Positions 1,816 to 31,005 of a DNA stretch of 32,291 bases are shown one piece after another. The DNA is taken from contig REDI01000013.1 of assembly GCA_007693595.1 (NCBI GenBank), positions 1 to 32,291 on the forward strand. Direction: 5' to 3'. The position numbers and the translations under genes are program-made. The stretch is from Deltaproteobacteria bacterium (GTDB taxonomy: Bacteria; Myxococcota_A; UBA796; GCA-2862545). Each line of letters begins with the position of its first letter. Positions within the stretch are counted from its first letter, which is position 1. The notes under the pieces were generated by a model. The model did no database searches. It was given only the letters and a program-made list of their open reading frames with translations, and was not told the origin of the DNA.

Positions 1816-3012
1816 ATGGACCATGACTTCGTCGCGACCGTCTCTCGTGGGCTCGAGCCCGTCCTCGCGCAGGAGCTCGCCGAGCTCGGGATCGGCGGGA
1901 TCCGGCAGGAGCGCGCCGCCGTGCGCTTCTCGGGGCCGCTCGCGGTAGGCTACCGCGCATGCGTCGGCTCCAGGCTCGCCAGCCGCGTCCTCCTCGAGAT
2001 CGCCGAGGTCCCCGCCCCCGATGGCGACGCGCTCTACGAGGGCGCCCGCCAGATCCCTTGGCAGGAACACCTGGGCCCCCGCGAGACCCTCGCCATCCGG
2101 TTCGCCGGCAAGAATCGCAAGATCCGCCACCCTCATTACGGCGCCCTCCGGGTCAAGGACGCCATCTGCGATGCCCTGCGCGATCGCGAGGGCGCTCGCC
2201 CCTCCATCGATCGCGATGATCCCGACGTCCAGGTACAGGTACACCTGCGCGGTGGCCGGGCGGGTCTGAGCATCGATCTCTCCGGCTCTCCGCTTCACCT
2301 TCGAGGGCGGGACCGCGACGGTGGGCCCGCGCCCCTCCGCGAGACCCTCGCCGCCGGCCTGCTGCTTCTGTCGGGTTGGCCGTCGCGGGGCCCGCAGGGG
2401 GCGCTGCTCGTCGATCCCATGTGCGGCTCGGGTACGATCGTCGCCGAGGCGGTCGAGATCCTCGATGGCCTCTCCCCTGGACTGCGTCGAGAGCACTGGG
2501 GCTTCTCGTGCTGGCGGGGGCACCACGAGCCCATCTGGCGCGACGTGCTGGCCGAAGCCCGCGATCGCGCCCGACCGGCGGGGCCGATCCAGATCTTCGC
2601 CTCCGACCTCGACCCCGCGCAGGTCGAGCGGACCCGCGACAACCTCGAACGCGCCGGCCTCGCCGGTCGGGTCCAGATCCGCCAGGCGGCGCTCACCGAG
2701 GCCGAGCCTCCCGGCTCAGGTCGCGACGAGCTCCCGCACGGCCTGGTCGTCACCAACCCCCCTTACGGCGTGCGACTGGGCGAAGAAGACGAAGTCCTCG
2801 CCCTCTGGCGCACGCTGGGGAACGTGCTTCGCCGGCGCTTTCTGGGCTGGGAAGGCTGGATCCTTGCGGGGGACCCCGAGCTGGCCAAGGGCCTGGGGCT
2901 GCGACCTCGTGCGAGGCACGTGATCTTCAACGGCCCCCTCGAAGGGCGCGTGCTCGAGGTGCCCATCTCGCCCCGTCCGGTCCAGCGGGACGTCGAGCCG
3001 GGCGACGACTAG
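1816..3012 (+). CDS. rlmL: THUMP-domain RNA N2-guanine methyltransferase (RlmL/YcbY N-terminal type)
   Basis: This 398-residue protein matches the COG0116 family, which uses SAM to methylate guanine N2 in 23S rRNA. Residues 1-60 form the ferredoxin-like N-terminal part (FVATVSRGLEPVLAQEL), residues about 60-160 the THUMP RNA-binding domain, and residues about 170-390 a Rossmann methyltransferase. The SAM motif DPMCGSGT is at 200-207, an acidic FASDLDP at 261-267 and the catalytic NPPY at 314-317. It lacks the second RlmK-like methyltransferase of E. coli RlmL, as in the shorter forms common outside gammaproteobacteria. The ATG at 1816 is chosen because similarity begins there; the open frame extends further upstream without family features. 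The stop shares a CTAG with the convergent neighbour. Confidence 0.85.
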   Translation: MDHDFVATVSRGLEPVLAQELAELGIGGIRQERAAVRFSGPLAVGYRACVGSRLASRVLLEIAEVPAPDGDALYEGARQIPWQEHLGPRETLAIRFAGKNRKIRHPHYGALRVKDAICDALRDREGARPSIDRDDPDVQVQVHLRGGRAGLSIDLSGSPLHLRGRDRDGGPAPLRETLAAGLLLLSGWPSRGPQGALLVDPMCGSGTIVAEAVEILDGLSPGLRREHWGFSCWRGHHEPIWRDVLAEARDRARPAGPIQIFASDLDPAQVERTRDNLERAGLAGRVQIRQAALTEAEPPGSGRDELPHGLVVTNPPYGVRLGEEDEVLALWRTLGNVLRRRFLGWEGWILAGDPELAKGLGLRPRARHVIFNGPLEGRVLEVPISPRPVQRDVEPGDD

Positions 3013-4319
3013 CGCCGCGCGCGGATCTCGCGGCCATCGTCGGATCGGAGGATCAGCTCGTCTTCGTCGAGGTGGTAGCGGCTGATCTTGGGCAGGAGTA
3101 GGAGGAGGGCGTTCTCTTGCTCGGTGCGCACGCCTTCACAGGCCATCTTGGTAGACATGGCGGGCTGAAACGAGATCCCCTCGCCGGGCGCCGAGACCTT
3201 GGTGCTGAAGCGGTTGCAGCCGCCGTGGCCCGTGACCTCGCCGTCTGCGGTGATCCGCAGGGTCGGGGGCTGCTGCTCTGAGATCTTGGACCCGCTGATC
3301 GCGGTGAGGATCCACGGCCCTTCCAGGAGCTCGATGGGCAGGCCTCCGCAGCCGCTCAGCTCGACGCGGCCGACGGTGAGGGTGGCGGTGGCCGGGTAAG
3401 GGGTGCCGCTCATGTCGTCGGTGCAGGGGGTGCTCCCCAGGCGGAGCGTGATCCCCGCGTCGGTGGAGGTCCAGGTGCGCTCCTGATCGGTCACGACCGA
3501 CTTGCTTACGGTGAAGCGCATCGGCGGTTGGCCCATGCGGTCGAGCACGCCGTCGGAGCCGGTGATGCGGACGCTCCAGGAGGGCTCGTTGCCCTGGGCG
3601 ACCACGGGGCGATCCTTGACGGGCGGGCGTCCGACGATCACGAACTGCCGCTCCAGGTCGAGGGGGTAGCGCTCAGCGTGAAAACCGCCCCCTTGCAGAT
3701 CGGAGATCACCGTGCCGGGCTCGAGGCGGTGCTCGGGAGGCGGACCCATGGGGCTATCTTTGCGGAGGTCGACCACCCAGAGCGAGCCGCCGGGCTTGAG
3801 CGCTTCGAGCAGCAGGGCGGCGTAGGCGTCGCGGTCCGAGAAGTGGTGCCAGGTGTTGACGGTGAGGATCCGATCGACGGAGCCAGGCTCGAGGGCGGGG
3901 TGATCGGGCTGGGAGAGCACGATCTGCACATTGTCGAGCCCTTGGTCGACCGCGATCCGCTCGACGTAGCGAAGCATGTTCGGCTCGATGTCGGCGGCGA
4001 GCACCTCGCCCTCGTCCCCAACGGCCCGTGAGAGGTGCGGGACGAAGTAGCCGGTGCCTGTGCCCAGATCGGCCACGGTCATGCCGGGCTCCAGCTCCAT
4101 GGCCTCGAGCAGGGCTCGGGGCTTTTGCCAGGCGTCGCGAGCCGGGTCATTCCAGTGCTTGGCGAACTTCTCGGGCTCGTCGAACCTGTGGTCCTTGTGG
4201 TTGTGACGGTGGCCTGGATCCTCGTCGCCGGGTGGATCTTCGGGCTCGGTGGGACCCCCGAGCTGCCGGGGCGTGCCGCAGGCAGCGAGCAGCAAGGTGA
4301 GGGTAGCGAAGCGGGTCAT
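3009..4319 (-). CDS. Lipoprotein fusing a SAM-dependent methyltransferase with an HslJ/META domain
   Basis: This 436-residue protein begins with a lipoprotein signal and lipobox LLAAC (Cys14). A His-rich linker (GHRHNHKDHRF, about 36-46) follows. Residues about 50-230 are a class I methyltransferase, with VADLGTGTG at 82-90 and AADIEPNML near 108-116. A segment containing GNEPSWSVRI (243-252) is characteristic of COG3650-type lipoproteins. Residues about 330-436 are a META/HslJ domain with its hallmarks GGCNRF (366-371) and STKMAC (389-394). A methyltransferase exported to the membrane is odd because SAM is normally cytosolic. Methyltransferases with the N-terminal architecture alone are known in proteobacteria; fusion to META is what stands out. 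The substrate is unknown. Confidence 0.75.
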   Translation of the reverse strand: MTRFATLTLLLAACGTPRQLGGPTEPEDPPGDEDPGHRHNHKDHRFDEPEKFAKHWNDPARDAWQKPRALLEAMELEPGMTVADLGTGTGYFVPHLSRAVGDEGEVLAADIEPNMLRYVERIAVDQGLDNVQIVLSQPDHPALEPGSVDRILTVNTWHHFSDRDAYAALLLEALKPGGSLWVVDLRKDSPMGPPPEHRLEPGTVISDLQGGGFHAERYPLDLERQFVIVGRPPVKDRPVVAQGNEPSWSVRITGSDGVLDRMGQPPMRFTVSKSVVTDQERTWTSTDAGITLRLGSTPCTDDMSGTPYPATATLTVGRVELSGCGGLPIELLEGPWILTAISGSKISEQQPPTLRITADGEVTGHGGCNRFSTKVSAPGEGISFQPAMSTKMACEGVRTEQENALLLLLPKISRYHLDEDELILRSDDGREIRARR

Positions 4320-4521
4320 GCGGGCTCCTGGTCTCGCCCCTTCCATACGCACCCAGGCCAAGCCCGGCCACCGCGCCGCTGCGGGCTGCCGCGGAAACCG
4401 TCTCGCGACGCGCGGGGCGAAGAGGGCGCCTGGTTTGAAGGGGGATGCACGCCCGGCGAAAGAGGGGCTGGGTCGTGCCGCCTGCGACGTCGCGTCAAAG
4501 TGGGCGCTCTCAGGGGCGGCG

Positions 4522-5097
4522 TCAGGGTTGGAGGGCCCAGGCGATCGCGCGGTCCAAGGTCCCATCCAGGAGCGTCGACGCGAGCCGGTGGCCGTCGTCG
4601 ATCTCCCAGAGTTCGGCGTCGGGGCTGGTGGCCGCGAGGGCGCGGGCATCGGCGAGGGGGACGACGTCGTCGTGGCGGCCGTGGATCAGTAGGCAGCGCA
4701 CTCCCGCGGGCAGCGTGCGGTGGGGGGTGAGCTTCAGCCCGGCGCCGGCCATGAAGATCGAGGGGCCGGTCCAGCCGCCCTCGTGGAGCAGCCGGAGCAG
4801 CACTGCGCCTCCGAAGCTGGAGCCGATCACCAGCCGGGTCTGCGGGCCGATCGCCTCGCGGGCTCGCGCCAGGGGTCGCTGGAAGGCTGCGTCGTAGCCG
4901 GGGTAGGGATGCTCCCACCGCTCGGGATCGGGCAGAGCGTCGCGGGCCTCGATCGCCTTGCGGGTGTCGAGGGCGGGCAGCGAAGCACGGTAGCGCTCGC
5001 TCAGGTAGGAAGCCTTGCCGCCGTTGGGCACGCCGCGATCATCGGTGCGGCTCTCGAGGCCGTGGAGGAAGACGAGGCTACGTTCGGGCAGGTTCAT
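4522..5097 (-). CDS. Small alpha/beta-hydrolase (YqiA/UPF0227-like)
   Basis: This 191-residue cytoplasmic protein has a short alpha/beta-hydrolase fold. The oxyanion-side motif FLHGLES is at 10-16, the nucleophile elbow GSSFGG at 92-97 (Ser94), the acid in HGRHDDVVP near Asp143/144, and the catalytic His in DDGHR at His170. Size and motifs fit small esterases/thioesterases, but the substrate cannot be predicted. It starts 25 bases after the stop of the G3E GTPase gene and is probably the last gene of the five-gene operon starting at 8412. About 200 bases without a gene follow before the next minus-strand gene. Confidence 0.75.
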   Translation of the reverse strand: MNLPERSLVFLHGLESRTDDRGVPNGGKASYLSERYRASLPALDTRKAIEARDALPDPERWEHPYPGYDAAFQRPLARAREAIGPQTRLVIGSSFGGAVLLRLLHEGGWTGPSIFMAGAGLKLTPHRTLPAGVRCLLIHGRHDDVVPLADARALAATSPDAELWEIDDGHRLASTLLDGTLDRAIAWALQP

Positions 5098-6094: not shown

Positions 6095-6945
6095 GGGGTC
6101 TCGCGGGCTGCGCGGCGGGCCAGGAGGGGGGCGGTGTCGATCTTGAACAGGGCTGCCGCGGTCTGCCAGGCGATGTGCTCCAGGTCTTCGGGGGCGAACT
6201 CGAGCTCCTCCAGAAAACGGAGGTAGGGGCCCATCTCGACCAGGGGCCAGTCGCTCCCGTACATCAGCTGCTTGCCGGGATCGCCCATGTAGATGATCAT
6301 CTCCTTGAGCCGCATCGCGACGTATCGCTCGAACTCATAGGTGAACTTTCCGAGGGTCAACCCGGAGATATCTGCAAAGACGTTGTCGTTCTTGTACAGG
6401 ACCTCGGCGGCGTCCTGGAACCACGGGTTGCCCAGGTGACACATCACGATCTTGACGTCGGGGTGGTCGACGGCCACGTCATCGACGAGCAGGGGGTGGG
6501 CCATGCGCACCTTGGCGGTGCGGCTGTAGGTGTCGCCGGTGTGGATCATGACCGGCACGTCGTGCTTGGCGGCGATGCGGAACACCGCTTCGAGCGAGGG
6601 GTCGTTGATCGGGTACAGGTCGTAGCCTGGGTAGAGCTTGATCCCCTTGACGATGCCGTCCTGGATGCGCTCCTCGAGGGTGAACAGATCGGTCCGCTCC
6701 TCGCCGCGCCATCGCAGGCCCTCCACGATGGTGGCACGGGGGTCGCCAGCCAGAAGATCGAGGACCTCCTCGGCGCTGGGGCGGTCCTGGTTGACCTTGT
6801 ACGAGGTGATGACCACGGCGTGATCGACCCCGAGGGCGTCCATCTCCGAGAACAGGATCTGCACGTTCTCCGCGGTCGGTCGCCGCTCGGACTCGTGGTA
6901 GTTGTTGAGGTGGACGTGGGTGTCGATCAGCAGCTTTGGGGTCAA
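6091..6945 (-). CDS. Amidohydrolase-superfamily metal-dependent hydrolase (COG2159, amidohydro_2)
   Basis: This 284-residue TIM-barrel hydrolase carries HxH (His10, His12) on strand 1, KGIKLYPGY (Lys103 region), MIHTGD (His135), CHLGNPW (His170) and YGSDWP (Asp232), the usual ligand and catalytic positions of amidohydro_2 proteins. The reaction is hydrolysis or decarboxylation of an unknown substrate in the cytosol. The start is a TTG at 6943-6945 with a GGAG about eight bases upstream. A homologous broken copy at 15645 begins with ATG at the same alignment position, which independently supports this start. It lies 37 bases after the HTTM gene and overlaps the G3E GTPase gene by 4 bases. Confidence 0.85.
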   Translation of the reverse strand: MTPKLLIDTHVHLNNYHESERRPTAENVQILFSEMDALGVDHAVVITSYKVNQDRPSAEEVLDLLAGDPRATIVEGLRWRGEERTDLFTLEERIQDGIVKGIKLYPGYDLYPINDPSLEAVFRIAAKHDVPVMIHTGDTYSRTAKVRMAHPLLVDDVAVDHPDVKIVMCHLGNPWFQDAAEVLYKNDNVFADISGLTLGKFTYEFERYVAMRLKEMIIYMGDPGKQLMYGSDWPLVEMGPYLRFLEELEFAPEDLEHIAWQTAAALFKIDTAPLLARRAARETP

Positions 6946-6982
6946 GCCGAAAACTCCGCGGTTGGTGAGGCAAGGTATTCCC

Positions 6983-7849
6983 CTAACCGGGCAGTCGCCG
7001 CAATAGAGCCGAGAGCCACGAGACCGGTGCGAACCCGCCGATCAGAAGCGCGATCATCAGCAGGCTGAACCAGACCAGCGGACCAAACAGCAGCCCGATC
7101 AGCAGGTGGAGCAGCAGGCCGAAGACCAGCGCCGGGATCCGGGTCGCGGCGAAGGCGAACAGGGCGATAGCGAAGGTCTCGAAGATTAGGGTGGACCAAA
7201 GCATCGCCGTCCACATGGCGGGGAAGGAAACGTTCGCGATCCAGTAGGAAACGGTGGTCTGGTAGCTGTCGTGGAGGTGGGTCCAGAGCAGATCGTCGCG
7301 GGTGAGCCACTCACCGCGGGCCTTGCACAGGCCGCTGCTCGTATACAAGACCAGCACCAAGGCTTGAAGGGCGCGCAGCTCGCCGGGTGCGCCGTGGGTG
7401 GGGCGCTCGCTCGGCGCGGTCTGCTTGTGGGCTCGCCAGGCGTCGATCCCCCAGCGCGCCCCCGCGACTGACAGCGCGAGACACAGGGCGATGATGCCTC
7501 CGAGCTTGCTCACGGTGAACGCCGCGAGGCGGTCGGCGAGGGCGACGTAGAATAGCGTGCCGGCGAACACGATCCCGGCGGCGCGGGTCTTGAACCCGAG
7601 CGAGAGGCACAGGCCGGAGACCACCATGACCGCCCCGAGCAGCCAGGCGAGCGGATCGGGCAGGGGAGGGAGGTAGAGCGGCTGCCGCCAGTCGGGTCCT
7701 CCGAGATCGGGCACGGAGAAGCCGGTGCGCCCCAGCCAGTGGTCGGCGTACCACAGCCGATGGGACATGAAGCCGAGGATCGCCAGCGGCGCGGTGATGC
7801 GCAGGAAGGCCAGCCGCTCCAGCGGCGCCGGGTCCCACAGCTTGCTCAT
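6983..7849 (-). CDS. HTTM-domain polytopic membrane protein, copy 1
   Basis: This 288-residue protein has about six to eight hydrophobic helices. It contains the elements typical of the HTTM (horizontally transferred transmembrane) family related to vitamin K-dependent gamma-carboxylase: ALADRLAAFTVSKLGG in the middle, then SSGLCKARGEWL (Lys176) and THLHDSYQ. The family is membrane-embedded; the bacterial reaction is generally unknown. The ATG at 7849 gives the same length as the paralogue at 15715-16581, to which it is about 83% identical without gaps (hand count). It overlaps the upstream 188-aa partner gene by 4 bases. The longer frame upstream lies inside that partner gene and is rejected. 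Confidence 0.85.
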   Translation of the reverse strand: MSKLWDPAPLERLAFLRITAPLAILGFMSHRLWYADHWLGRTGFSVPDLGGPDWRQPLYLPPLPDPLAWLLGAVMVVSGLCLSLGFKTRAAGIVFAGTLFYVALADRLAAFTVSKLGGIIALCLALSVAGARWGIDAWRAHKQTAPSERPTHGAPGELRALQALVLVLYTSSGLCKARGEWLTRDDLLWTHLHDSYQTTVSYWIANVSFPAMWTAMLWSTLIFETFAIALFAFAATRIPALVFGLLLHLLIGLLFGPLVWFSLLMIALLIGGFAPVSWLSALLRRLPG

Positions 7850-8412
7850 GGGGCCACCCGGCACTGGCGCTCCCGGCGGCTCGCCGGGGTATAGAACCAA
7901 GCCTTCACCTGATCCTTGGGGATGTCCGCCAGGGGCTTGGCGCGGAAGCGAGGCACGGGCCGCTCGTCGATCGCGGGGAGGGGGTGGCGCACGCTGCTCA
8001 GACGGATCCCGCCGATCTCCTGGCCCGGCACCGCGTCGCGGTTGACCCGCTCTACGAGGTAGGACTCAAGGGCCTCCATGGCTTTGCGCTCGCGCCGATA
8101 AAAGAACCCGGTCCGATGCAAGCGGCTCTCCTTGTTGTCGGCGTGGATCGGGAAGTAGGGCGTAGCGTCTAGCTCGGTGAAGCCCTGGTCCGCGCAGCTC
8201 CACGCCTCGACCCGGTACTCGATCGCCATGCGGGCGGCCTTGGGAAAGAGGCAGGCGACCTGCGTAAAATAGAGGATGGGACCGGGCAGCTGCCGAGGCC
8301 AGGTCGCCCCCACCGAGCCGGCGAGGATCGTGAACAGGTAGGCGCTGAACAGCGCGGCGCCGCCGATACGGGCCCATCGGGGGCTGAGCCCTGTGAGAGG
8401 AGGGGGAGACAT
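7846..8412 (-). CDS. Single-pass membrane partner of HTTM protein, copy 1
   Basis: This 188-residue protein has a short cytoplasmic N-terminus, one membrane helix at about 16-34 and a domain of about 150 residues predicted outside the cytoplasm. I do not recognise the family. Conserved between both copies are three Cys (54, 73, 184), an AIEYRVEAWSC block (63-73), PYFPIHA (85-91), KESRLHR (94-100), FFYRRER (103-109) and IRLSSVRHPLP (136-146). Copy 2 is about 76% identical without gaps. The gene overlaps HTTM by an ATGA in both copies, which argues for a stoichiometric complex. It is the first gene of the five-gene minus-strand operon. Confidence 0.75.
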   Translation of the reverse strand: MSPPPLTGLSPRWARIGGAALFSAYLFTILAGSVGATWPRQLPGPILYFTQVACLFPKAARMAIEYRVEAWSCADQGFTELDATPYFPIHADNKESRLHRTGFFYRRERKAMEALESYLVERVNRDAVPGQEIGGIRLSSVRHPLPAIDERPVPRFRAKPLADIPKDQVKAWFYTPASRRERQCRVAP

Positions 8413-8505
8413 GGGGCGCGGCTAACGTGAGATCGAGGGTCGAACCATCGCAGCGGTTGTGGTACGGCCCGCTTAGCCCAGGCGGACTGCCTGCTGGAGA
8501 CGCCC

Positions 8506-9906
8506 ATGATCGCCTTGATGGCCCTCGCCTTCGCCAGCCCGCCCGACGCCGAAGCCCTCGACGCCTTCCTGCGCAGCCACGCGGAATCCGGCACCTTCGT
8601 CGGCGCGGCCCGGGTCGAGGCAGGGGGCGAGGTCCTGCTCGATGCGACCTACGGCGACGTAGCTGACCGCGCCGTCTGTCGTATCGGATCGGTCAGCAAG
8701 AGCTTCACCGCGGCCGCGCTGATGGCGCTGGTCGGCAAGGGGCTTGTCGAGCTCGACGATCCGGTCCAGCGCTACGTCCCGGAGCTGCGCGACCGCCTCG
8801 ACGGCGAGGGGCCGACCCTGCGCCACCTCCTCCAGCACCGGGGCGGGCTCTCCGAGCCGATGGTCAACCCGTGGATGGCGCCACCTCCCGACTTTCAGGC
8901 TTACCTCGCCGTCGTCGGGCCACAGGTCGAGGTCGAGGCCGCCCCCGGCGCGCGCATGCGGTACAGCAACTTCGGCTACACCCTGCTCGCACGGGTCGTG
9001 GCGGTGGTCGGCCAGGGCACCTACGAGGAGGTCCTCCGGCGCGAGATCCTCGACCCCCTCGATCTGGCCGACACCGGCCTGAACCCCGATGAGGCCCGGC
9101 TTATCCGAGGCCGGCTCGCCTCTCCCCTCGGCCTGATCGACGCCCAGGCAGCGCTGCCCAGGGTCATCGCCTACGACTACCGCTGGCCCTACGCCGGCGA
9201 CGGAGGCCTCTCCTCCACGACCGCCGATCTCGCCGCCTTTGCGCGTGGTCTGCGCGAGCCCGGCCTGCTGTCCGACGAGGTGCGCGCGACCATGCTCACC
9301 CCCCACCCCGACGACCCGACGGCACTCGGCTTTATTCGCCGCGATCATCACGCCTGGCATAACGGGGCGCTGGTCCCGCTCGGGATCTACGCCTACCTCC
9401 GCTGGTCTCCGGACGACGACGTGGTGGTCGCCCTGTGCGGCTCGCCGACCATCACCGATGTCTCCGTCGAGTGGGGCCCCGCCGCGGAGTCGGTGCTCGC
9501 GGGGGAGCCATCGGATCTCCGAGTCTCCGCCTCCCCCTTCGGGTGGATCGCGGCCGCCTCGGTGCTTCGGCTCTCCTGGCTCGTCGGGCTGCTCGGGATC
9601 GGGCTCGCAGGTGCCGTCGGAGGCCGACGCTCGACCCGGATCAGCGCCATGGTCGGCGGGGCCGGCGTCTCCTTGCTCGGGCTCGGCTTGGTGGGGCCGT
9701 GGCATGGGGTCGTCGGCGCCGTCCTCGCGATCGCCCTCGGGGGAGGGCGCTGGGCGGTTCAACGACCGACGGAGTGGGGCCGTTGGGGCTGGAACGGCCT
9801 GTTCGCGGCGGTGCCGATCCTGCTCGCGGCCGGGGTGCTAACCGTCTTGCTGGCGTTGATGGATGGATATGTCGAGAACATCTGGTCTTTGGGGGTGGGG
9901 TCTTAA
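8506..9906 (+). CDS. Class C beta-lactamase-fold serine hydrolase with C-terminal membrane domain
   Basis: This 466-residue protein has a very short N-terminal hydrophobic signal and a serine beta-lactamase/penicillin-binding fold at about 12-330. The SxxK motif is SVSK (62-65), YxN is YSN (153-155) and the third motif is HNG (285-287), as in the AmpC/esterase EstB group (COG1680). From about residue 340 three to four hydrophobic helices follow, the last ending near residue 455. The arrangement suggests a periplasmic hydrolase anchored by its C-terminus; substrates could be peptides, esters or D-amino acid compounds. A GGAG precedes the ATG. Its last 103 bases (from about 9804) lie in a direct repeat seen again at 11485. 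Confidence 0.85.
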   Translation: MIALMALAFASPPDAEALDAFLRSHAESGTFVGAARVEAGGEVLLDATYGDVADRAVCRIGSVSKSFTAAALMALVGKGLVELDDPVQRYVPELRDRLDGEGPTLRHLLQHRGGLSEPMVNPWMAPPPDFQAYLAVVGPQVEVEAAPGARMRYSNFGYTLLARVVAVVGQGTYEEVLRREILDPLDLADTGLNPDEARLIRGRLASPLGLIDAQAALPRVIAYDYRWPYAGDGGLSSTTADLAAFARGLREPGLLSDEVRATMLTPHPDDPTALGFIRRDHHAWHNGALVPLGIYAYLRWSPDDDVVVALCGSPTITDVSVEWGPAAESVLAGEPSDLRVSASPFGWIAAASVLRLSWLVGLLGIGLAGAVGGRRSTRISAMVGGAGVSLLGLGLVGPWHGVVGAVLAIALGGGRWAVQRPTEWGRWGWNGLFAAVPILLAAGVLTVLLALMDGYVENIWSLGVGS

Positions 9907-10044
9907 CCCTCGGGGCCTCGCAAGGGTTCTGGTTCGCGTTCGCGTCGCACGTCCTTTAATCTGTTCGTCGAAAAACAAGCGAGGCTCCTGTAGTTGACTT
10001 GTCGAGTTGGATCGGGACGTGCAAGGTACACATCCCTTCCGGGT
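9804..10044. repeat. Direct repeat copy A flanking the HTH/nucleotidyltransferase insertion
   Basis: About 241 bp recur at 11485-11752 in the same orientation. Copy A covers the 3' end of the beta-lactamase-fold gene, the intergenic region and a dead 5' fragment of the gene that is intact at 11698. In the fragment the GTG-GTG start region has become GTA-GTT and the frame stops soon after 10044. Copies differ at scattered bases and in the number of GTTCGC hexamers (short here). Confidence 0.85.
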
Positions 10045-10142: not shown

Positions 10143-10841
10143 CTACAGGTTCGGCCAAGCGAAGGCGAGCCAATGCAGGCGCTCGAACACGGTCAGGACC
10201 CGGTCTTCGCGATCCGCACCACGCGTGACCGTTCCCTCGATCTCGTCGCGGAGCTGCGGGCGCCGGATGGCGGCCTCGGCCCACGCGGCGACGGCTAGGA
10301 CCGCGGCTCGAGGCGTGTCCGCGAGCCAAGGTTGCAGCTGGGGATTCGACTCTAGGATCAACACGATATCTTCGAAGTCCGGGCTCTCATACCAATATCG
10401 CCCACCCCGCTGCTGGAGCGCGGCGACCTTCGCGGCGAGGAACCGGCCCGGGCTGAGGACTGGGATCACGCGTCCGCTAGGTAGGCTGTGCCGGCGGATA
10501 CCTGCGCCGGTTGGCCTTGCCCACCGATCGTCGGGATGATCTGTGCGGATGTCGACGATGTCGTAGACCCGGTCTTCCTTGAACCACCGACACCGCGGCC
10601 CCTGGCTGATGAGGTCCTGGTGAAAGCCATTCGCTCGCAGTCGGCCTTCTAGGGCGGTGAATTCGCCGTAGGATGCCTCGACCATGACATCCACGTCTCG
10701 GGTCTCGCGGAGGACCGCGCCTGCCTGCTCATCGACATAGAGCGGCATGGTCGCCCCGCCGACGAAGACCATCGGCAGATCCACGAACTCGAGGTCCATG
10801 GCCGCTTGGTCTAAGCGATCGAGAAGTTCCTTGCGGCTCAC
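10143..10841 (-). CDS. AbiEii-like nucleotidyltransferase (putative toxin of a TA/abortive-infection pair)
   Basis: This 232-residue protein has the minimal nucleotidyltransferase signature of DNA polymerase beta-like enzymes: FVGGATMPLY (Gly28-Gly29) followed by TRDVDVMVE with Asp49 and Asp51. Size and pattern match the AbiEii/AbiGii (DUF1814-type) toxin superfamily, some members of which inactivate tRNA or protein targets by adding nucleotides. It overlaps the upstream HTH gene by 4 bases, as in type IV-style pairs. The pair lies between two direct repeats and appears inserted. The target is not predictable from sequence. Confidence 0.7.
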   Translation of the reverse strand: MSRKELLDRLDQAAMDLEFVDLPMVFVGGATMPLYVDEQAGAVLRETRDVDVMVEASYGEFTALEGRLRANGFHQDLISQGPRCRWFKEDRVYDIVDIRTDHPDDRWARPTGAGIRRHSLPSGRVIPVLSPGRFLAAKVAALQQRGGRYWYESPDFEDIVLILESNPQLQPWLADTPRAAVLAVAAWAEAAIRRPQLRDEIEGTVTRGADREDRVLTVFERLHWLAFAWPNL

Positions 10842-11392
10842 CGTGCCGCCAACGCGTCGCGTTGTCGCGCGAGCCAGTCAAGGTCGCGCCCTGGCTTGGC
10901 GAGGAGCTGCTCGAGCTCCTCAACGGCCAAGCTGCGGTCGCGTGCCCGACCGACCCGCAGCGCGTCGAGCAGCGCGAGCGCCGCGTACAAGTCCGGGTCC
11001 GCCGAGCAAGCGCCTGGGACGCAAGGGTGTAGGGGCTCGACCGCGCGGCCCTTGACCCCGCCATCAGCAGGCCAGACGAAGGGCTCCGCGAAGATCAGCC
11101 GCTCGCGCAGCGGCAGGGCTGCGTGTGCCGTAGGCATACCGAGCGCGACGGGTCCCGGCGTGGCTGGAAAGATGTGGGGAATGCCGTAGGCTGCGAACGA
11201 GACAAAGGCCAGGGACCGTAAGCTGCGGTCCGATCTGCGGTAGAGGTTGGCGGCTTCGAGGCGTCGTAACGAGGTGTGGGCTTGCGAAGGGGATATCGCC
11301 AAGCGCGCCGCGAGCCGCTGGAACGACCATGGGTCAGCCTCTGCCCAGAGGTGAGCTTTGAGCCCAACGACGATGTCTAGCGGATGAAGCAT
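10838..11392 (-). CDS. Winged-helix HTH protein, putative antitoxin/regulator of the nucleotidyltransferase
   Basis: This 184-residue protein has a helix-turn-helix at about 22-52 (FQRLAARLAISPSQ, then SLRRLEAANLY), the MarR-like recognition pattern. The rest is a mixed domain ending in a helical, charged tail. It is the first gene of a two-gene unit with a 4-base overlap, so it most likely represses its own operon and may neutralise the toxin. The only AT-rich stretch upstream, TTAGTATAAG, ends a few bases before the ATG, and no ribosome site is evident; a leaderless mRNA is possible. HTH + DUF1814-like pairs are recurrent in bacterial defence regions, but this exact HTH family I cannot name. 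Confidence 0.6.
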   Translation of the reverse strand: MLHPLDIVVGLKAHLWAEADPWSFQRLAARLAISPSQAHTSLRRLEAANLYRRSDRSLRSLAFVSFAAYGIPHIFPATPGPVALGMPTAHAALPLRERLIFAEPFVWPADGGVKGRAVEPLHPCVPGACSADPDLYAALALLDALRVGRARDRSLAVEELEQLLAKPGRDLDWLARQRDALAAR

Positions 11393-11484: not shown

Positions 11485-11752
11485 CGCGGCGGTGCCGATC
11501 CTGCTCGCGGCCGGGGCGCTGACCGTCTTGCTGGCGTTGATGGATGGATATGTCGAGAATATCTGGTCTTTGGGGGTGGGCCCCTAACCCTCGGAGCCTC
11601 GCAAGGGTTCTGGTTTGCGTTCGCGTTCGCGTTCGCGTTCGCTTACGCGTCGCACGTCCTCTCCTCTGTTCGTCGAAAAAAAACAAGCGAGGCTCCTGTG
11701 GTGGACTTGTCGAGTTGGATCGGGACGTACAAGGTACACATCCCTTCCGGGT
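11485..11752. repeat. Direct repeat copy B with expanded GTTCGC hexamers
   Basis: This is homologous to 9804-10044, in the same orientation. Copy B contains a 3' fragment of a beta-lactamase-fold gene (reading VPILLAAGALTVLLALMDGY) but its upstream sequence differs from the real gene at 8506. It then holds the intergenic region with extra GTTCGC units near 11610-11645 and the intact 5' end of the gene at 11698. The 305 bases 11393-11697 hold no complete gene. Confidence 0.85.
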
Positions 11753-15644: not shown

Positions 15645-15722
15645 ATGCCCCCGGGCCTTCTCATCGACACCCCCATCCACCTCAACAACGACCATGAGCT
15701 AGCGAAGCGGCCCCTCAGCCAG
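15645..15722 (+). pseudogene. 5' remnant of an amidohydrolase paralogous to the gene at 6091-6945
   Basis: An ATG preceded by GAGGAG opens a frame reading MPPGLLIDTPIHLNNDHE, then LAKRP, which matches the start of the intact amidohydrolase (LLIDTHVHLNNYHE, then RRP). The first metal-binding His has changed to Pro (THVH to TPIH). Similarity ends where the tail of the second HTTM gene begins on the opposite strand at 15715. Only about 23 codons survive and they point in the opposite direction relative to the HTTM gene compared with copy 1. No product is expected. Confidence 0.75.
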
Positions 15723-16581
15723 GCAGGCGCCGGAAGAGCGCCGAGAGCCAGGATAGGGGTGCGAAGCCGCCGAGCAGAAGGGCCATCATCAGCAGGCTGA
15801 ACCAGATCAGCGGCCCGAAGAGCACCCCGATGAGCAGATGGAGCAACAGCCCGAAGATCAAGGCGGGCAGGCGGGTCGCGGCCACGCAGAAGAAGGCGAG
15901 CGCGAAGACCTCGAAGATGAGGGTCGACCACTGCATGCTGGTCCACAGGAGAGGTGGGAGCAGGTTGGCCAGCCCGTGCGCGATCGCGGTCTGGTAGCTG
16001 TCGTGGAGGTGGGTCCAGAGCAGATCGTCGCGGGTCAGCCACTCGCCACGCGCCTTGCACAGGCCACTGCTGGTGTAGAGGATGAGGACCAGGGCCTGGA
16101 TGGCGCGGAGCTCGCCCGGGGCGCCGTGGGTAGGGCGCTCGGCGGGGGGAGTGTCGCGGTATTTGAGCCAGGCGTCGAGGCCCCACCGTGAGCCGGCTAC
16201 CGAGAGCGCGAGGCACAAGGCGATGATTCCGCCGATCTTGCTCACGGTGAAGGCGGCGAGCCGGTCGGCGAGGGCGACGTAGAAGAGCGTGCCGGCGAAG
16301 ATCACGCCCGCCGCTCGGGTCTTGTACCCCAGGGAGAGGCACAGCCCCGAGACGACCATGACCGTCGCCAGCAGCCAGGCCAGGGGATCGGGGAGGGCGG
16401 GCAGGTAGAGGGGCTGTCGCCAGTCGGGAGTGTCGAGCTGGGGCACGGAGAATCCCGTGCGCCCGAGCCAGTGATCAGCGAACCACAGTCGGTGGGACAT
16501 GAACCCGAGGATCGCCAGGGGTGCTGTGATGCGTAGAAAGGCGAGCCGCTCGAGCGGTGCGGGGGCCCAGAGCTCGCTCAT
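15715..16581 (-). CDS. HTTM-domain polytopic membrane protein, copy 2
   Basis: This 288-residue protein aligns without gaps to the HTTM protein at 6983-7849, about 83% identical by hand count. All the HTTM signature stretches are unchanged: ADHWLGRTGFSVP, ALADRLAAFTVSK, SSGLCKARGEWLTRDD and THLHDSYQ. Differences cluster around residues 137-145 and 199-217, both loop/helix-edge positions. It overlaps its partner gene by the same four bases as copy 1. Instead of an intact amidohydrolase, a broken inverted amidohydrolase start abuts its 3' end. Retention of sequence in both copies suggests both are under selection. Confidence 0.85.
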   Translation of the reverse strand: MSELWAPAPLERLAFLRITAPLAILGFMSHRLWFADHWLGRTGFSVPQLDTPDWRQPLYLPALPDPLAWLLATVMVVSGLCLSLGYKTRAAGVIFAGTLFYVALADRLAAFTVSKIGGIIALCLALSVAGSRWGLDAWLKYRDTPPAERPTHGAPGELRAIQALVLILYTSSGLCKARGEWLTRDDLLWTHLHDSYQTAIAHGLANLLPPLLWTSMQWSTLIFEVFALAFFCVAATRLPALIFGLLLHLLIGVLFGPLIWFSLLMMALLLGGFAPLSWLSALFRRLPG

Positions 16582-17144
16582 GGCGACACCCGGCAGGTTC
16601 GGGCGCGTCGCGAGACCGGGGTGTAGAACCAGGCCTTGAGGCGGTCCTCAGGAAGGGCCGACAGCTCCGTGCGCTCAAACCGTGCCACGGGGCGCTCGTC
16701 GAAGGCGGGGAGGGGGTGACGCACGCTGCTCAGGCGGATCCCACCGATCCGTTCCGCTTGGGCCACGTCCTCGTTGACGCGGCGGACCAGGTAGTCCTCG
16801 AGGGCCTCCATCACGACCCGCTCTCGTCGATAGAAGAAGCCGGCCCGATGCAGGCGGCTCTCTTTGTTGTTGGCATGGATGGGAAAGTAGGGGGTGGGGT
16901 CGAGCTCGTAGAAGGCCTGGTCGGAACAGCTCCACGCCTCGACGCGATACTCGATCGCCATGCGGGCAGCCTTGGGGAAGAGGCAGGCCACTTGGGTAAA
17001 GTAGAGCACTGGCCCTGGGAGCTGCTGAGGCCAGCTCGCCTTGACGGAGCCCGCGAGCATCGTGAAGAGGTAGGCGGAGAAGAGGACCGCCGCGCCGATG
17101 CGCGCCCAGCGGGGGCCTAGTCCGGGAATGGCTGGGGGTGTCAT
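16578..17144 (-). CDS. Single-pass membrane partner of HTTM protein, copy 2
   Basis: This 188-residue paralogue of the protein at 7846-8412 has the same length and no gaps, with about 76% identity. The membrane helix (16-34), the three Cys (54, 73, 184), PYFPIHA, KESRLHR, FFYRRER and SSVRHPLP are all kept. Variation is greatest at 121-130 and 154-168. It is first in a two-gene unit with the HTTM gene, and a 142-base divergent region separates it from the plus-strand gene at 17287. I do not recognise the family outside this pair. Confidence 0.75.
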   Translation of the reverse strand: MTPPAIPGLGPRWARIGAAVLFSAYLFTMLAGSVKASWPQQLPGPVLYFTQVACLFPKAARMAIEYRVEAWSCSDQAFYELDPTPYFPIHANNKESRLHRAGFFYRRERVVMEALEDYLVRRVNEDVAQAERIGGIRLSSVRHPLPAFDERPVARFERTELSALPEDRLKAWFYTPVSRRARTCRVSP

Positions 17145-17286
17145 GCGGCGTGGCTAACCCGGACACCGCGCGCGGGGATCTCGTCAAGGTTGGCCAAGGT
17201 CAGTTCTGCAGCAACTCGCCTGGGAGTCGGTTAGACGGGCGCCGTTCGTGAGGGGGCTGTGCACGCCTTCGACGAGGGGAGAAGGG

Positions 17287-26807: not shown

Positions 26808-26881
26808 CGGGGTATAGCGCAGCCTGGTAGCGCGCCTGCTTCGGGAGCAGGAGGCCGCAGGTTCGAATCCTGCTACCCCGA
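26808..26881 (+). tRNA. tRNA-Pro (anticodon CGG)
   Basis: The 74-nt cloverleaf is complete. The acceptor stem CGGGGTA/TACCCCG, the D stem GCGC/GCGC, the anticodon stem CCTGC/GCAGG with loop TTCGGGA (anticodon CGG, positions 34-36) and the T stem GCAGG/CCTGC with loop TTCGAAT all pair. The C1-G72 pair is typical of tRNA-Pro. CCA is not encoded (A73 is followed by TC). Confidence 0.95.
26842..26881 (+). repeat. tRNA 3'-end repeat, proximal copy (att-like)
   Basis: The last 40 nt of the tRNA, from the anticodon to the discriminator base, are repeated exactly at 27045-27084. Identity ending at the tRNA 3' end is the usual footprint of tyrosine-recombinase integration at a tRNA gene. Confidence 0.7.
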
Positions 26882-27044: not shown

Positions 27045-27084
27045 CGGGAGCAGGAGGCCGCAGGTTCGAATCCTGCTACCCCGA
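27045..27084 (+). repeat. tRNA-Pro 3'-end repeat, distal copy (att-like)
   Basis: This is an exact 40-nt copy of tRNA positions 26842-26881, with no tRNA 5' half in front of it. Only 163 bases separate the copies, so any element that once lay between is gone, or the copy marks the edge of the accessory zone to the right. No integrase gene is nearby. Confidence 0.7.
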
Positions 27085-29181: not shown

Positions 29182-29965
29182 CTCATGGTCCATGGACAGC
29201 CCGACACGGCGATGTACCTTGCTTCGCGCGGGCCGCTCCCGCGTCCCACGCGCCGCAGGTCATCGCCCATGTTCTTCAAGGTCGGGGTCCATCGACATCA
29301 AGGAGGCGGACGACGCGTGGAGACGGGACGTGATGCCACGCGCGCGAGGAGACGTGCCGCGCGGAGCTCCGCGAACGTACGCGGGCGACGAGGGCCCGAA
29401 GTCATGCTCTCGTCGCCCCAAGATTCAGCACCTCCGCCACCTTCCCCTCATCCCAGTCCATCCACGGGTCGACCCAAAGAGTTCTATACTCATCAAGCCA
29501 GCCCGACCACTCAGCTCAGGGCCCTCGCGGATCAGGGATCCACGAGGGCTCTCCTGGTTCTTGGAGTTCGAGATCTCCGCGACCACTCACGAGGTCGGGT
29601 CCTGGATATCGTGTAAATCACTGTTCATCCAACGTCATTCTGGTTCGAGAGCGTCGCGAATGAGGCCACGATCCACGGCCGAGTCGCCCGGTCGAGCACC
29701 GCCACGAGGTCTCCGAACGAACCGTCAGCCGATCGGCCCATCCCTGTGGCCAGCGCCACGCCCCAGCCACCAGCGCCGCGTCGTGAGCGGAAGCCGTGGT
29801 CGCAGACCACCATCTGGAAGAAGGCTGGTGCGAGCCGGACACCTCGCAGACTGTCGACGACGACTTCGGCGGTTCATCCATCTACTCATGCGTCGGAGGG
29901 CCCGGGGTCACGCTCGGAGCGACCCTCGGCGCGGGGCTGGCGACGTAGGAGCGAGCTGTGGAGGG
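29182..29965. other. 784-base region without an intact gene
   Basis: It contains repeat copy 1 (29426-29512), a hairpin (29521-29549) and, on the minus strand at 29625-29868, a stop-free frame reading VVVDSLRGVRLAPAFFQ, MVVCDHGF and a C-terminal DLVAVLDRATRPWIVA. That frame may be the tail of a decayed gene but I recognise no family. Nothing else is supported. Confidence 0.4.
29426..29512. repeat. 87-bp dispersed repeat, copy 1
   Basis: It is about 92% identical to 30919-31005 in the same orientation, by eye. On the minus strand it reads as a conserved peptide (EWSGWLDEYRTLWVDPWMDW). An imperfect 13-bp hairpin follows eight bases downstream at 29521-29549 (GCCCTCGCGGATC / GATCCACGAGGGC). Confidence 0.75.
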
Positions 29966-30918: not shown

Positions 30919-31005
30919 CAGCACCTCCGCCACCTTCCCCTCGTCCCAGTCCATCCCAGGGTCCACCCAAAAAGTTCTATAATCATCAAGCCAGCCCGAC
31001 CACTC
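30919..31005. repeat. 87-bp dispersed repeat, copy 2
   Basis: Same orientation as copy 1. On the minus strand it reads EWSGWLDYRTFWVDPGMDW, then DEGKVAEVLG. A hairpin follows six bases later (GCCCGTCGGGA at 31012-31022, TCCCGGCGGGC at 31030-31040). The 394 bases 30789-31182 hold no intact gene. Confidence 0.75.

Follow-up and report, generated by a model that had tools for sequence, protein, structure and literature searches.

The locus raises the question of why the gene of an HTTM membrane protein is kept together with that of a small single-pass membrane protein, and what the two proteins might do together. The window, i.e., the whole stretch of 32,291 nucleotides analyzed here, is contig C9 of a host genome of 4.9 Mb in 97 contigs, and it carries this gene pair twice. 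The features of the two copies are as follows:

7846 to 8412, minus strand: partner, copy 1, 188 amino acids, with a transmembrane (TM) helix at residues 12-33 followed by a beta/alpha extracytoplasmic domain (ORF call; AF2 model, pLDDT 83)
6983 to 7849, minus strand: HTTM protein, copy 1, 288 amino acids (Pfam HTTM, E 2.8e-17; profile versus human GGCX, E 1.5e-7)
7846 to 7849, minus strand: stop/start overlap of partner and HTTM genes, copy 1, 4 bp (translational coupling)
8239 to 8262, minus strand: partner motif QVACLFPK, residues 51-58, copy 1 (family alignment)
7322 to 7324, minus strand: codon of HTTM Lys176, copy 1, aligned with the GGCX catalytic base K218
16578 to 17144, minus strand: partner, copy 2, 188 amino acids (ORF call; 76% identity with copy 1)
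15715 to 16581, minus strand: HTTM protein, copy 2, 288 amino acids (Pfam HTTM, E 6.9e-15; 83% identity with copy 1)
16578 to 16581, minus strand: stop/start overlap of partner and HTTM genes, copy 2, 4 bp
16971 to 16994, minus strand: partner motif QVACLFPK, copy 2 (family alignment)
16054 to 16056, minus strand: codon of HTTM Lys176, copy 2, aligned with GGCX K218

A duplicated and obligate gene pair

The two units of 1430 bp (6983-8412 and 15715-17144) align with each other free of gaps. Our comparison bore out what the first-pass annotation had reported on this recurrence, i.e., the lengths of 288 and 188 amino acids, the 4-bp overlap, the absence of gaps and identities of about 83% and 76%. 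The copies share 82.7% of the amino acids and 79.1% of the nucleotides in the HTTM gene, and 76.2% and 74.8%, respectively, in the partner gene. An alternative upstream TTG in HTTM copy 1 would give 305 amino acids, while the conserved ATG gives 288. The similarity block (6980-8426 versus 15711-17158) comprises just the two genes and reaches 1159 bits in blastn (E 0), thus a match far beyond chance. Third codon positions are identical in 56% (partner) and 60% (HTTM) of the cases, and first and second positions in 83-94%. The dN/dS ratio between the copies, proposed earlier as a check, is 0.17 for the partner (0.172/0.994) and 0.15 for the HTTM protein (0.116/0.762; NG86), not near 1. Copies 1 and 2 are sisters with a support of 100/100 in both the partner tree and the HTTM tree, and the unit is therefore a lineage-specific duplication with both copies under purifying selection. 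The duplication covers the two genes with just a few bases on either side, which gives no support for a mobile cassette. Besides, 42 nt next to copy 2 (15657-15698, plus strand) are 86% identical, in inverted orientation, to positions 6892-6933 (minus strand). They are what is left of the beginning of the amidohydrolase gene located after copy 1, a decayed version of which adjoins the second unit.

Among 379 genomes of the phylum, the partner was detected at E < 1e-20 in six additional genomes and more weakly in two others, and each real match with a readable flank adjoins an HTTM gene; a partner without HTTM was not found wherever the contig continues. One match (L027, E 0.003) was rejected, as it falls in an unrelated reading frame with no HTTM gene. 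None of the 62 other genomes searched from the order, one of them of the same genus, carries the partner. Searching the genome contigs with the partner alone gave no match, and searching with the HTTM alignment gave relatives; the plasmid collection held no match to the window partner. Close relatives of the HTTM protein occur in five contigs from metagenome-assembled genomes (MAGs), mostly labelled Myxococcales or Labilithrix, and the HTTM gene likewise adjoins a partner in L015 and L017-L019 from MAGs. The relatives of the pair come from Myxococcota, and an identical or similar gene overlap, of 4 bp in most cases, is present in L017, L018, L020, L022-L024, L026 and L028. Conserved neighbors were not found around the pair, except among three closely related Labilithrix-type loci with local synteny. 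As no other gene is common to these loci, the cassette stands on its own, and a gene for a dedicated substrate is not apparent.

The annotation had argued for an obligate complex from the preservation of both genes as a unit across the duplication. Such preservation is true, and the pairing goes beyond it, since a single-pass protein ('GAWSMFTAKDARHVEVEAKALAGGEWHSLDLPKIFPYRW') is likewise encoded upstream of the third HTTM gene of the genome (contig C61, L005). The pair is real and obligate by every test available, and it is a new family in a layout already known from DUF5819/HTTM and SdpAB.

Relationship of the HTTM protein, and probably of its partner, to the human gamma-carboxylase

The two HTTM copies score 63.6 and 55.8 bits against PF05090, exceeding the curated cut-off of 27.7 bits. 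The N-terminal half also resembles the DoxX membrane proteins (PF07681) at a sub-threshold level (22.6 bits, cut-off 23.6), and the protein scores far higher for HTTM than for DoxX. A profile of 15 HTTM relatives matched human GGCX among the PDB sequences at E 1.5e-7, and the relationship with the vitamin K-dependent gamma-carboxylase noted before holds, catalytic lysine included. According to cryo-EM work on GGCX (PMC12589487, 2025), from which the roles of W223, F294 and F299 were also taken, K218 is the catalytic base for the quinol, and N159 and H160 bind Glu in the Glu pocket. In the profile alignment, K218 corresponds to K176 of the HTTM protein, W223 to W181, F294 to F255, F299 to F261, H287 to H248 and D263 to E224. 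Of these HTTM residues, K176, whose region had been described as invariant on the basis of the two copies, is indeed invariant in the alignment of 15 relatives, as are W181, F261, H248 and E224. Not kept are the Glu-pocket residues N159 (T112) and H160 (V113) and also K217 (C175; Cys or Ala in the family), and the quinone-pocket F286 is L247. Judging from this alignment, the protein retains the catalytic lysine and the greater part of the quinone pocket.

The partner matched no family in Pfam, NCBIfam, PHROGs or PADLOC and no relative among the PDB sequences. Within its family, L55 and F56 of the motif QVACLFPK and the downstream R100 are invariant. The AF2 model comprises the TM helix (12-33), a helix (44-59), strands (62-72 and 77-81), helices (97-105 and 109-126) and strands (133-144 and 169-174). 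Foldseek gave no significant match for this model (GGCX at rank 31, E 4.7), and the viral structure library gave nothing. When the Foldseek candidates were realigned, the best five chains were all residues 404-492 of GGCX, with Z values of 4.1-4.9 that are low in absolute terms; the next unrelated row had a Z of 3.5. This part of GGCX sits directly behind the membrane-embedded linker (Y395, S398, W399, M401 and M402) that separates the Glu pocket and the quinone. We propose that QVACLFPK may be the equivalent of this TMD-PBD linker (Y395..W399-D-M401-M402), with an exact residue match that we infer; the Trp of the motif is missing from the window partner. A second model, of a partner with the related motif QSWxxF (pLDDT 88), did not have GGCX among its matches, and the similarity of its extracytoplasmic part was to T-fold enzymes (Z 3-4). 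This result leaves GGCX possible, because only Foldseek's own candidates were aligned.

Fused and split HTTM genes and the partner families

The HTTM genes of the phylum occur in two mutually exclusive forms, fused (38 loci) and split. We read the loci of the best 30 PF05090 matches and of 60 weaker matches with their flanks. The best 30 all encode single proteins in which the HTTM part is combined with an extra TM helix and a lumenal domain bearing a motif of the [FY]SWxxM type with the pattern [FYW][SA]Wx[VM], and 8 of the 60 weaker loci are fused as well. One fused protein of 446 amino acids matched residues 57-492 of human GGCX at E 6.5e-40, with RFSWRVM on YGYSWDMM, and the fused relatives keep an LNH motif at the Glu-pocket position. 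In L102, L106, L107 and L119, a DUF5819-like domain with QxWxxFxPxP is fused behind HTTM, at the position of the GGCX lumenal domain.

A gene for a motif-bearing single-pass protein (e.g., YDERFAWRMFSP, DQSWRMFVAP or GQSWGLFTYP) lies directly upstream in 42 of the 52 non-fused loci, and the overlap is exactly 4 bp in 31 of these 42. With the same motif search, an upstream partner was found in none of the 38 fused loci, and the downstream control was empty for all 90 HTTM loci. The counting motif was written after the loci had been inspected, and one identical pattern was applied to fused, split and downstream positions. Several of the other 10 non-fused loci have an upstream single-pass protein with a divergent motif, and two (L108 and L109) have neither a partner nor a GGCX-like lumenal domain. 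The HTTM proteins of these two loci carry a C-terminal TM and helical-repeat-like extension. The finding that a partner-type domain is either upstream of or fused to the HTTM protein, never both, in related loci strengthens the case for an obligate complex.

We further compared the partner families by profile-profile scores, each against 100 column shuffles. Thin profiles were only suggestive, and the families were therefore enlarged. The window partner family was linked to the QSWxxF partners (z 9.4), to the DUF5819-like partners (z 6.6, 98 columns) and to both merged (z 9.6, 99 columns), and the QSWxxF and DUF5819-like families were linked to each other at z 19.9. The RFAWRMF partners matched the fused GGCX-like lumenal domains at z 11.7 over 76 columns with the motif in register, and the merged QSWxxF and DUF5819-like set matched the RFAWRMF partners plus fused lumenal domains at z 11.7 over 80 columns. 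SdpA was the most distant of the linked families (z 5.4 against the merged partner set). In none of these comparisons did any of the 100 shuffles reach the observed score. The direct comparison of the window partner family with the fused lumenal profile was not significant (z 0.1-1.3), and the case for its relation to the GGCX lumenal part thus draws jointly on the chain of profiles, the structural match, the position of the gene and the fusions. Homology of the partner to the lumenal part of GGCX is therefore supported indirectly, and the view that such partners provide the half of a GGCX-like enzyme that HTTM lacks is well supported for the superfamily and moderately for the window family.

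A putative two-chain enzyme and its alternatives

Based on these results, we consider it likely that the pair constitutes a two-subunit GGCX-like enzyme, which is the explanation we favor with reasonable confidence. The pair shares with human GGCX (PDB 9bux, 9l20, 9wf2) and its fused bacterial homologs the HTTM homology, the catalytic Lys and the W223/F294/F299 equivalents, and the predicted partner domain weakly resembles GGCX residues 404-492. In contrast to GGCX, the HTTM and lumenal parts are on two chains, encoded by two ORFs, and the partner is too short for the second propeptide-binding lobe and the arch domain.

In the mechanism that we propose from the sequence comparisons, the HTTM chain would be the catalytic membrane part, with a quinol bound and K176 as the base; menaquinol would be the obvious candidate. 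The partner would supply, on its own chain, the last TM helix, packing like TM9 of GGCX, the membrane-embedded linker and the first lumenal lobe. The linker would wall off the quinol from the substrate, with the QxACLFP segment replacing the W-D-M401-M402 wall, and the first lobe would hold the substrate. The beta/alpha domain would present it, R100 possibly being equivalent to the substrate-holding R436. Both chains would have to assemble to form the active site, which would explain why the genes overlap, strictly occur together and were duplicated jointly. The activity is likely a quinol-driven modification other than Glu gamma-carboxylation, presumably of an envelope protein or peptide. With two VKOR-family proteins encoded in the genome, recycling of a quinone epoxide is conceivable, but VKOR has a role in disulfide formation as well.

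The alternative closest to this two-chain enzyme, being a functional sub-case of it with the same architecture, is that the pair makes or matures a secreted antimicrobial peptide, as SdpA and SdpB do for the SDP toxin of Bacillus subtilis. The gene order and topology are alike, with a single-pass SdpA (PF17418) and an SdpB of the HTTM family, and a weak profile link connects SdpA with the partner superfamily. SdpA/SdpB pairs with SdpC-like toxins are annotated on plasmids and are also present in Myxococcota, where in L030 (527-2966, minus strand) SdpC-like, SdpA and SdpB/HTTM genes follow each other, a Gram-negative SDP-type system in the same phylum. However, the window partner has no PF17418 match, SdpA lies farthest away among the linked families, and a comparison of neighboring genes turned up neither an SdpC-like nor another conserved small secreted gene beside the window pairs or at related loci, nor did the larger window genes include an SdpC-like precursor. 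We thus regard this function as improbable for the window pair.

With a similarly low probability, the partner might be only an assembly or stability factor, i.e., a chaperone-like anchor for the HTTM protein that makes no contribution to the active site. Strict pairing and overlapping genes would look identical in that case, and the profile link to the GGCX lumenal domain runs via intermediates. On the other hand, other HTTM proteins carry a related domain as a fusion where GGCX has its lumenal domain, and few parts of the partner are as well conserved as the motif aligned to the active-site linker of GGCX.

It is still less probable that the pair is a true Glu gamma-carboxylase, a two-chain bacterial vitamin K-dependent enzyme making Gla, even though the HTTM protein is homologous to GGCX and keeps the K218 equivalent, and VKOR-family proteins are encoded in the genome. 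The product is probably not gamma-carboxyglutamate, because the Glu pocket formed by N159/H160 is T112/V113, whereas the fused relatives keep the LNH motif; the K217 equivalent is Cys or Ala.

The least likely of these explanations is the partner-assisted redox module suggested in the first-pass annotation, in which conserved partner cysteines would exchange electrons with the HTTM protein: the three cysteines (54, 73 and 184) described there as invariant are identical in both copies and C73 and C184 are kept in the close family, and DCC1-type thiol oxidoreductases neighbor DUF5819-HTTM pairs on plasmids, but C54 is A, R or C in relatives and CxxC is absent, leaving the role unsupported, while no thiol oxidoreductase was recognized beside the window pairs and a structural disulfide would suit C73 and C184. 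A missing lumenal part of a GGCX-like enzyme describes the partner better than a redox helper does.

The DUF5819 (PF19136) and HTTM pairs of Actinomycetota, Bacillota and some Myxococcota resemble the window pair in having a single-pass partner directly upstream of HTTM, with a QxWxLFxPxP region that aligns with QxACLFP. PF19136 did not match any of 13 members of the partner family up to E 10, and the window pair differs in the missing motif Trp and in having no DCC1 oxidoreductase gene beside it, whereas DUF5819 and HTTM pairs annotated on plasmids are often followed by one. Small secreted-looking ORFs occur upstream of DUF5819 and HTTM pairs in L031 (2267-2749, minus strand) and L032 (2241-2726 and 2698-3093, both minus strand); all end in EFLLD, EFLLDG or EFLD and are candidate substrates of the neighboring HTTM enzymes.

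What is new here is the interpretation of the partner as the half of a GGCX-like enzyme that the HTTM protein lacks: in the open-access literature, with subscription journals and preprints outside its scope, our search found no link between the GGCX lumenal domain and SdpA, DUF5819 or any other HTTM partner. We tentatively extend it, at somewhat less than an even chance, to the hypothesis that most non-fused bacterial HTTM proteins are two-subunit quinol-dependent enzymes in which the second subunit (SdpA, DUF5819 and unnamed families) is the GGCX lumenal half. If so, there would be a large unrecognized class of membrane protein-modifying enzymes with chemistries beyond gamma-carboxylation, SDP toxin maturation included. 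Should the partner form the other half of a GGCX-like active site, the known GGCX structures would point to precise residues for experiments on many gene pairs that lack an explanation. They would also hint at the action of SdpAB on the SDP precursor, and show how a two-chain enzyme could have given rise to the fused human carboxylase, or vice versa.

Some further features of the window were observed. Between the two copies, positions 10143-11392 (minus strand) matched the PADLOC candidate defence models PDC-M21B (E 2e-22) and PDC-M21A (E 9e-31), a pair consisting of an AbiEii-like nucleotidyltransferase and an HTH protein. Short direct repeats link 9804-10044 with 11485-11752 (85%) and 29426-29512 with 30919-31005 (93%). 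A single ORF at 3009-4649 (minus strand) combines a methyltransferase domain with a C-terminal META domain. The 3' 40 bp of a tRNA gene (26808-26881) recur exactly at 27045-27084, about 200 bp downstream, in a repeat that resembles an attachment-site duplication.
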